From an uncultured Methylophaga sp. (GTDB taxonomy: Bacteria; Pseudomonadota; Gammaproteobacteria; Nitrosococcales; Methylophagaceae): a DNA stretch of 64,000 bases. Made by a program: the position numbers and the translations under genes. The stretch covers positions 558,001 through 622,000 of the forward strand of contig NZ_CAMYKO010000005.1 in assembly GCF_947259025.1 (NCBI RefSeq). Direction: 5' to 3'. The notes beneath the pieces were generated by a model. It did not search any database. It was given only the letters and a program-made list of their open reading frames with translations, and had not been told where the DNA came from. Shown here piece by piece: positions 31,941 through 34,942 of the stretch (position 1 is its first letter; every line of letters begins with the position of its first letter).

Positions 31941-32222
31941 ATGAAAACCTTTATCTATAAAAGCACCAAAAAAGAAGAGCTCTATCTCTACATTGCCAAC
32001 AAGGATGATTTCTCCGACGTGCCTCAGGAACTCTATGATTCCATGGGCAAAGAGCCGGTGTTTGTGATGGAACTGGAATTAAGTGCAGAACGTCCACTGG
32101 CACGGGAAGACGTCAACTTGGTAATGCAAAACCTGGCAAATCAGGGTTTCCACGTACAGATGCCACCGCGTCCGGAAAAACTGGGCGAGTTCATGAACGC
32201 CAGGAAGCAACACCTACACTAG
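31941..32222 (+). CDS. YcgL domain-containing protein
   Basis: A 93-residue YcgL family protein: YKSTKKEELYLYIANKDDFSDVPQELYDSMG, ending LGEFMNARKQHLH. The family is widespread in gammaproteobacteria, small and soluble, and its function is not established. It follows the VOC gene by 11 bp and is probably co-transcribed with it. Confidence 0.9.
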   Translation: MKTFIYKSTKKEELYLYIANKDDFSDVPQELYDSMGKEPVFVMELELSAERPLAREDVNLVMQNLANQGFHVQMPPRPEKLGEFMNARKQHLH

Positions 32223-32226
32223 CTAC

Positions 32227-32377
32227 ATCCGCAGATTACGCAGATGGACATCGATTAAAACGACTAACAAAGGCTTATTCTTGCAACGGCTTTATCGTGG
32301 CCTGATCGTGGCCTGCTTCTGAAGTAACGTCCCGCCAGCCTTGTCTGTTTATGCGAAAATCTGCGTAATCTGCGGAT
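32227..32377. repeat. Perfect 19-bp inverted repeat flanking a 113-bp spacer
   Basis: ATCCGCAGATTACGCAGAT (32227-32245) recurs exactly inverted at 32359-32377. The spacer has no gene but contains a near-tandem GTGGCCTG(AT)C repeat. The repeat lies between the ycgL-like gene and the end of mutS (4 bp from its stop). I recall this motif as a dispersed sequence in many bacterial genomes; that needs a search. Confidence 0.8.
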
Positions 32378-32380
32378 AAG

Positions 32381-34942
32381 TTACATACCCGCTTTCGCCA
32401 TACGGCTTAACTCATACAGCAAATCCAGCGCCTGTCTGGGACTGAGTTCATCAGGACTGATTTGCTGCAGCCGTTTTTCCAGCTCGGACTGTTCATTGCT
32501 GACAAACAGATCCGGTTGCGGTGCATTCTGAACGGCTTCGCCCTGATAGCGGCTCTGTTCCAGTTGTTGCAGCTTCATTCTCGCCGCTGAAATCACATCT
32601 GCCGGCACCCCGGCCAGATGCGCCACCTGCAGGCCGTAGCTCTGATTCGCCGCCCCTTCTTTGAGCTGATGCAAAAACACAATCTTGTCACCATGCTCAA
32701 TCGCATCCAGATGGACATTGCGCGCCTTGTCGAATAATTCAGGCAGTTGCGTCATTTCAAAGTAATGGGTGGCGAACAGGCTATAAGCGCCAATATCGCG
32801 GATCAGTTTTTCAGCGCAGGACCAGGCCAGAGCCAGACCATCAAAGGTGCTGGTGCCGCGGCCGATTTCATCCATCAAAACCAAGCTGTGATGCGTGGCA
32901 TTGTTAAGAATATTGGCGGCCTCGTTCATTTCCACCATAAAGGTCGAACGGCCAGCGGCCAGATCATCCGACGCGCCGATACGGGTAAAGACCTGATCGA
33001 CCGGCCCAATCACCGCCCTGCTCGCCGGCACAAAACTGCCCATATGGGCCATCACTACGATCAGCGCCGTCTGGCGCATATAAGTGGATTTACCGCCCAT
33101 ATTGGGGCCGGTAATAATCAACATCGGCTGGCTGCCGGAAAGTCTTAAATCATTGGCACAAAATGGCGCGCTTTGACTGGCTTCGACCACAGGATGACGG
33201 CCCGCTTCGATACTGATTCCGGCCTCATCAGTAAATTGCGGTGCGACATAATCCAGCGTCTCGGCGCGTTCCGCCAGATTGGCTAAAACATCCAATTCAG
33301 ACAGTGCAGCCGCTGAATGCTCCAGCGCTGGCAACTCGGGCAGCAGTTTGTCGAACAGCCCGTCGTAGAGTGACTTTTCCAGTGCCAACGCTTTTTCATT
33401 GGCGCTTAGCACCTGTTCTTCGAAACTTTTCAATTCAGGCGTGATATAGCGCTCGGCATTCTTCAGGGTCTGCCGACGCACGTACTCGGTGGGCACTTCA
33501 ATATCATGGGCACGGCTGAATTCAATGTAATAGCCATGCACCTTGTTGTAACCAACCTTAAGGCTGCTGACCCCGGTACGCTCGCGTTCACGCACTTCGA
33601 CATCATCGAGAAAACCGCTGGCGTTCTGATGCAGATCGCGCAGCCGATCCAGTTCTTCATCGTAACCGGGCCGAATCACCCCGCCATCACGAATCAATAC
33701 CGGCGGTTCATCCAGGATGGCCGTTTGCAACAGCTGCTTTAATTCGCTGAAATGCCCCAGGGTTCGATCCAAATGACGCAAATGCAGGCTGGTCATCGGT
33801 TTCAGTAAGTCATGCATGTCCGGCAGCATGTCCAGCATGCGCCGCAGGTGCATAAAATCGCGGGGCCGGGCACTACGCAGCGCAATCCGTGACAAAATTC
33901 GCTCGATATCACCCAGTGGTCGCATCAACGCATGACAATCACTGAATGTTTGCTTATCAATAAACTGCTGAATGCCTTCCTGACGCTGCTTTAACGTCCG
34001 GGTATCTCGAATCGGCCGCATCAGCCAGCGTCTCAGCAGACGCGCGCCCATCGGTGTGGCGGTTTTATCCAGTACTGAAATCAAAGTATTGTCACGACCG
34101 CCTGCCAGGTTCTGTTCCAGTTCCAGGTTACGTCGTGACTGCGGATCCAGACGGATGCTGTCCTTGGTATATTCAACGCGAACCTGGCGCAGATGCGGTA
34201 AGGCGGTGCGGTGGGTTTGCTGGGCATAATTGAGCAGACAGCCAGCAGCACTGGTGGCCAGGGCCAGATCATCACAGCCAAAGCCTTTTAAATCCGGTGT
34301 TTTGAAATGTTCACACAGCCGCGTTCGCGCCGCTTTCTGTTCAAAGTGCCACTGTGGCAATGGCCGCAAAGATTTTTCAAAATTCTGGAAATCATCCAGT
34401 TCGCTATCGCTGATCAAAATTTCAGCGGGTTGCAAACGCGCCAGTTCAGCGAAAAGCTCACTCTGGCTGTCCATTTCAGCCACGCTAAAACGGCCACTGG
34501 CAATCTCCGCCGAGGCAAGGCCATAACGGCCCTTATTGTGACTGACTGCAACCAGCAGGTTTTCATTGCGACTGTCGAGCAGGGCTTCTTCGGTCAAGGT
34601 GCCGGGCGTTAAAACCCGCACCACTTTCCTTTCTACCGGGCCTTTGCTTTTGGCCGGATCGCCGGTCTGTTCACAAATCGCTACCGACTCACCCAGTTTG
34701 ATTAGCCGCGACAGGTAGCTGTCGGCGGCATGGTATGGCACACCGGCCATCGGGATCGGTGCGCCGTTACTGCTGCCCCTGGCGGTCAGGGTGATATCCA
34801 GCAACTCGGCGGCTTTATGCGCATCATCAAAAAACAACTCGTAAAAGTCGCCCATGCGATAAAACAGCAAAAAATCAGGATGTTCCGCCTTGATGCGCAG
34901 ATACTGCTGCATCATCGGTGTATGATTTTGGGATTGAGTCAT
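32381..34942 (-). CDS. mutS: DNA mismatch repair protein MutS
   Basis: 853 residues from the ATG at 34942, the same length as E. coli MutS; the longer ORF in the track would run into pncC on the other strand. The mismatch-reading segment is [15 protein letters not shown] (Phe-x-Glu: FYEL), and the ATPase has [17 protein letters not shown] (Walker A), [21 protein letters not shown] (Walker B region) and [10 protein letters not shown]. It recognises base mismatches and recruits MutL. The ribosome site is weak. Its start is only 16 bp from the divergent pncC start. Confidence 0.97.

Follow-up and report, generated by a model that had tools for sequence, protein, structure and literature searches.

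A dispersed inverted-repeat unit beside mutS in Methylophaga and its association with repeats that bracket GxxExxY nuclease-like genes

We propose that the 151-bp inverted-repeat unit lying between ycgL and mutS in the window (the whole stretch of DNA analysed, 64,000 nucleotides of an uncultured Methylophaga sp. genome) probably belongs, as a non-autonomous element, to a REPIN-like system that has a Cas4/RecB-like PD-(D/E)XK nuclease of the GxxExxY family in place of the RAYT transposase. The observations behind this proposal are the dispersal of the repeats, their orthologous empty sites, the bracketing of GxxExxY genes by such ends, the match between end type and protein type, the co-occurrence of gene and repeats, and the nuclease fold and catalytic residues of the protein. 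The link between ends and GxxExxY genes is shown by sequence comparison, and the nuclease would move or maintain the repeats.

The unit beside mutS and its copies elsewhere

The initial annotation had described a perfect 19-bp inverted repeat beside mutS that encloses 113 bp without a gene, and both statements held. The 19-mer ATCCGCAGATTACGCAGAT is exact at 32227-32245 on the plus strand and at 32359-32377 on the minus strand, whereas shuffled windows gave an expectation of 0.01 matches at up to 3 mismatches and none of 100 shuffles contained two. The interior was confirmed to be gene-less (Table 1), and a DNA search found no other match to it in the source genome or in 37 relatives. The placement next to mutS was right for that side and left unremarked the ycgL stop codon (TAG, 32220-32222; YcgL Pfam E-value 7e-29), which lies 4 bp off the other side. 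The two genes converge (mutS stop codon at 32381-32383) and the unit almost fills the 158-bp gap between them. Its ends extend beyond the 19 bp, with a decayed third tandem unit that reaches about 32256 on the left and starts at about 32348 on the right. Intrinsic terminators, defined as a GC-rich stem followed by a T run, were sought over 32000-32600 with 0 found, and Rfam gave no match to the unit up to an E-value of 1.

Table 1. Features of the ycgL-mutS region, in window coordinates
Feature	Positions	Strand	Basis
Non-autonomous inverted-repeat unit, AGAT type, 151 bp	32227..32377		Motif match and copy comparison
Left end: CCGCAGATT / ACGCAGATG / decayed third unit GACATCGATT	32227..32256	+	First 19 bp exact
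Right end: CCGCAGATT / ACGCAGATT / decayed third unit TTCGCATAAA	32348..32377	-	First 19 bp exact
Interior, 113 bp, without gene	32246..32358		Sequence search of source genome and 37 relatives
ycgL, convergent neighbour	31941..32222	+	Stop 4 bp from unit
mutS, convergent neighbour	32381..34942	-	Stop 3 bp from unit; start codon inferred

The suggestion of a small dispersed element, either non-autonomous or of a REP-like kind, is supported. The source genome (2.70 Mb) contains 3 exact 19-mers and 21 near copies with up to 3 mismatches, compared to 0 for the reversed-pattern control, and the copies are mostly arranged as inward-facing pairs 74-208 bp long. Counting the 19-mer in relatives, as had been advised, recovered it with at most 1 mismatch in 14 of 24 genus genomes. 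The empty sites that had been asked for were also found: at the mutS locus of most relatives the unit is absent and the two genes lie only several bp to some tens of bp apart; the closest relatives, G013 and G003, carry a diverged version of the unit in this position. Comparison between species showed that other unit loci, too, are occupied in certain species and vacant in the rest. A local terminator, with the motif confined to this place and conserved with mutS, is contradicted by the dispersal of the motif and by the lack of the unit at mutS in most relatives. Target duplications had been proposed as a further sign, and none was found: direct repeats of 4-8 bp were not clearly above shuffled sequence in 70 copies. 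In the same copies, 3-mer direct repeats were slightly raised at the unit borders (4 against 0.8 shuffled). The bases just outside the units are A-rich in the outward direction. A second repeat, ACCACAGAGGCACAGAG, has 43 copies (up to 2 mismatches) in the source genome and the same end architecture.

About three degenerate units of 9-10 bp in tandem make up each end. Comparison of copies gave their order as CCGCAGATT, ACGCAGATN and a third that is set off by a somewhat wider gap, the linker often differing between the ends of one copy (GATGGAC on the left, GATTTTC on the right). This architecture recurs in several sequence types, CCGCAGATT, CCACAGAGG and CCACGAATT among them. Interiors are mostly unrelated among the copies of one genome, those with perfect ends included and with few partial exceptions; orthologous copies in different species have interiors in common. 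In G104, which contains 59 exact 19-mers in units mostly 163-183 bp long, a short interior stretch is common to only three of them.

The units also nest. In several cases a CCGCAGATT unit lies inside a CCACAGAGG unit, and at C5:209596 the nesting is the other way round. At one locus a short CCACAGAGG-type hairpin stands alone in G020, whereas its centre is occupied by a CCGCAGATT unit in five other species and by a different palindrome in G015. The G015 palindrome, AAATGGAATGGTCCGC..., lies at the centre of the CCACAGAG hairpin (L301, G015:C57:29500-30250), where other species have the CCGCAGATT unit. Palindromes of the GTAGGTTGGG type, which appear to resemble GTAG REPs, are sometimes innermost in units (compare PMC3733652). 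Within 150 bp on each side of one GxxExxY gene (L067, G011:C70) we observed three palindromes nested in one another, CCACAGAGG - CCGCAGATT - CCACAGAGG; the gene is central and the two 151-bp arms score 139. At L239 and L241 (G017, G021) the flanks within the outer hairpin look inverted or chimeric between the two species, as if inverted arms recombine. The GCACAGAG sequence at G242:C12:8242-8297 is a head-to-tail 8-bp tandem array, a minisatellite and not a set of dispersed elements.

GxxExxY genes between repeat ends

The source genome has two GxxExxY (TIGR04256) genes, and both lie between such repeats. The first (C1:181944) is flanked by CCACAGAGG ends; the second (C6:147304) is near CCACGGAA ends, which are imperfect and were overlooked by the array pattern. 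An AGAT-type GxxExxY gene was not detected in the source genome. We then considered 117 GxxExxY loci from many phyla, drawn by protein similarity and therefore not an unbiased sample. Inward arrays were present on both sides at 93 of these 117 loci, compared to 2 of 97 stretches at a distance of 1 kb that served as controls. An unsupervised inverted-repeat search (score of at least 14) gave 93 of 117 genes compared to 0 of the 97 controls, and mismatched upstream/downstream pairs reached score 14 in 22 of 232 cases, as expected if types recur. Recognisable arrays were absent at 10 of the 117 genes. The arms mostly comprise three units spaced 9-10 bp, and the gene-bearing unit has a median length of 484 bp. 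The motif had initially been called unexplained; it can now be described more narrowly as one type within a larger class of ends bracketing GxxExxY nuclease-like genes.

Left and right ends are alike in type at 88 of 94 GxxExxY loci, for 33% by chance. End type tracks the GxxExxY protein tree and not the host phylum: 11 changes of end type were counted on the tree compared to 37.5 after shuffling, while phylum needs 26, with the proviso that near-copies inflate the clustering and many forks are poorly resolved. The last base of the tandem unit, G or T, defines a split that nearly coincides with a supported branch of this tree. Such matched types suggest that the GxxExxY protein may recognise the ends. 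Within the genus the gene usually sits, by our reading of the flanks, between dhaK and dhaL, where CCACAGAGG ends accompany one protein subtype and CCGCAGATT ends another. The loci L023 (G000:C1:180444-183788) and L065-L073 combine this fixed dhaK-dhaL address with two protein subtypes and two end types. Methylophaga sp. OBS4 and genus member G015 have GxxExxY proteins that do not differ in the part that was matched. Phages and plasmids were considered as carriers and essentially lack the gene: 8 of 72,556 plasmids and 0 of 50,697 phages had it.

Gene and repeats also occur in the same genomes, as judged by tests that ignore kinship. In the genus, the 19-mer is present in 11 of 11 GxxExxY carriers and in 3 of 13 other genomes (p 1.5e-4). 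Among 323 genomes of the class, the gene was detected in 6 of the 7 with at least three 19-mers (p 1.8e-4) and in 14 of the 18 in which CCACAGAG sites number three or more (p 2e-8); of the four CCACAGAG exceptions without the gene, one is a tandem array. The type of the gene was matched to that of the repeats at inspected loci only. The motif without a detected GxxExxY gene was seen in G020, G010, G018 and G074, two of which are incomplete assemblies; G074 has 21 copies of the 19-mer. G104, with 229 sites, has several GxxExxY matches, none seen with AGAT ends, and its inspected gene loci have ends of another type or none recognisable.

The product of the bracketed gene matches Pfam PF13366 (PDDEXK_3) with E-values of 3e-38 or better and scores 142-146 bits against TIGR04256, compared to a curated cut-off of 35 bits, which makes these proteins clear GxxExxY members. 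A domain search detected no transposase domain in them. In 40 sequences E82, K84 and Q96 (L072 numbering) are invariant, and D72 and Y100 are conserved in at least 90%, giving a pattern D...ExK...QxxxY (D72, ExK 82-84, QxxxY 96-100) that would fit an active PD-(D/E)XK nuclease; the activity is predicted from these residues. The best PDB matches of the AF2 model (pLDDT 91.2) in Foldseek were, with modest scores, Cas4 SSO0001, LHK-Exo, lambda exonuclease, AdnAB and MGME1. The modelled fold is Cas4/lambda-exonuclease-like, and the protein can be described as a small Cas4/RecB-like PD-(D/E)XK nuclease. PADLOC returned weak Cas4/AbiEii similarity only.

Proposed mechanism and alternatives

In the mechanism that we favour, the GxxExxY protein would bind and cut the ends, thereby driving insertion, and the approximately three 9-10-bp units per end are its candidate recognition sites. 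The gene-bearing form would consist of end, GxxExxY gene and end, about 480 bp in all, while the short units would be ends without the gene, spread or kept alive in trans by a nuclease of matching type, on the model of REPINs with RAYTs (PMC3116915). Cutting would take place at the tandem units, and spread or renewal would follow via repair or single-strand intermediates, as for REPINs (PMC3116915). Insertion may proceed through the hairpin or by the repair of breaks, because there is no target duplication and interiors are not common to copies. The mutS copy may now be decaying, since its genome yielded no AGAT-type GxxExxY gene; the 1-3 mismatches present in most AGAT ends of this genome agree with such decay. 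In G006, however, AGAT copies are perfect although the only gene is of the CCACAGAGG type, so decay without a matching gene would not be a strict rule.

A broader proposal, put forward tentatively and at less than even odds, is that GxxExxY proteins are the mobilising enzymes of minimal mobile elements that span phyla, have the Cas4/RecB-like nuclease as their sole gene and fill genomes with short inverted-repeat units, which insert themselves into each other's hairpin centres. Against our explanation stands the fact that copies of one genome mostly differ inside, unlike ordinary MITEs. As to the role of the gene, it could be a passenger, it could encode a nuclease resident at sites that another agent, for instance a RAYT, disperses, and possibly the nuclease merely homogenises the units.

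A homing-like variant of our explanation seems rather unlikely, although it accounts for several observations. The nuclease would here cut unfilled or diverged sites, and break repair by gene conversion would copy the ends and sometimes the interior, in place of excision and insertion. Nearly perfect ends around differing interiors, different interiors at one site across species with seemingly chimeric or inverted flanks, and the lack of target duplication would all agree with it. However, new sites in unrelated sequence require more than conversion, and the ends are precise at many different flanks. It is improbable that the units are of REP/REPIN or TIR type and moved by a RAYT (Y1 tyrosine transposase) encoded elsewhere, with GxxExxY as a passenger or chance insert. 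REPINs do look alike, with conserved ends, a variable spacer, a hairpin and a single-copy enzyme gene (PMC3116915), TIRs can flank RAYTs (PMC3733652), no target duplication is seen here and some units contain GTAG-type palindromes. Nevertheless, the GxxExxY gene is directly bracketed, in units whose median of 484 bp leaves no room for a RAYT; the end type follows the GxxExxY tree, and presence of the gene predicts the repeats.

We strongly doubt that selection keeps host-useful hairpins, such as a terminator acting in both directions or an element that stabilises RNA where convergent genes end. The mutS unit folds as a long and strong hairpin (-57.8 kcal/mol, z -5.5) placed exactly between two convergent stops, but it offers no terminator-like site or Rfam match and is missing at mutS in most relatives. 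Moreover, the ends mutate independently (4 of 66 deviations compensating, 2.6 expected, p 0.36), so that hairpin pairing under selection is unsupported. Least credible of all are ordinary MITEs derived from a DDE insertion sequence that would have the same terminal repeats. Empty sites, interiors without coding sequence and terminal inverted repeats in pairs suit them, but ordinary DDE-type transposition fits poorly with interiors mostly not common to copies and target duplication not above chance in 70 copies, and the bracketed gene fills the examined units, all found through GxxExxY, leaving no room for a DDE transposase.

Relation to known repeat systems

In the papers found, no function or repeat association is described for GxxExxY (TIGR04256/PF13366). 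A literature search that covered few subscription papers and no figures returned nothing on these end sequences or on their link to GxxExxY; the two matches to the 12-mer were unrelated papers and one GxxExxY mention was a cas4-neighbour annotation. Our analysis provides a candidate identity for the repeats CCGCAGATTACGCAGAT, CCACAGAGGCACAGAG and CCACGAATTACACGAATT, scattered across many bacterial phyla, and a candidate role for the GxxExxY nuclease family. With protein types and end types in a matched series, recognition can be put to a direct test.

Correia (NEMIS) MITEs are, like the present units, gene-less, about 100-200 bp long and bounded by terminal inverted repeats; unlike in MITEs of this type, the present copies mostly differ inside and target duplication was not found. 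Rpn (YhgA-like) proteins have a PD-(D/E)XK-type fold, and we know of no dispersed cognate repeats for them. They belong to Pfam PF04754, unlike GxxExxY, and are recombination-promoting nucleases linked to DNA mobilisation (PMC5350276), as in the role proposed here. In TIRtrons and TIRYT a dispersed repeat also flanks an enzyme gene as TIRs, but that enzyme is a tyrosine transposase (PMC3733652); the text of that paper, figures aside, contains none of the present end sequences.

As in REPIN/RAYT systems, inverted pairs of ends with a variable spacer are dispersed at extragenic sites, a low-copy enzyme gene is tied to the same ends, several end types each have their own enzyme and the enzyme gene is rare on mobile replicons. 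In contrast, the bracketed enzyme is PD-(D/E)XK nuclease-like and not a Y1/HUH transposase, and the ends are three tandem 9-10-bp units that begin ATCCGCAG and lack the GTAG tag, not short GTAG-tagged palindromes. Because the defining transposase and GTAG tag are missing from the units, we regard this as a variant of the REPIN/RAYT kind and not as a member. If this is true, the REPIN-style combination of a resident enzyme and a short-repeat population has a second origin, with an unrelated enzyme.
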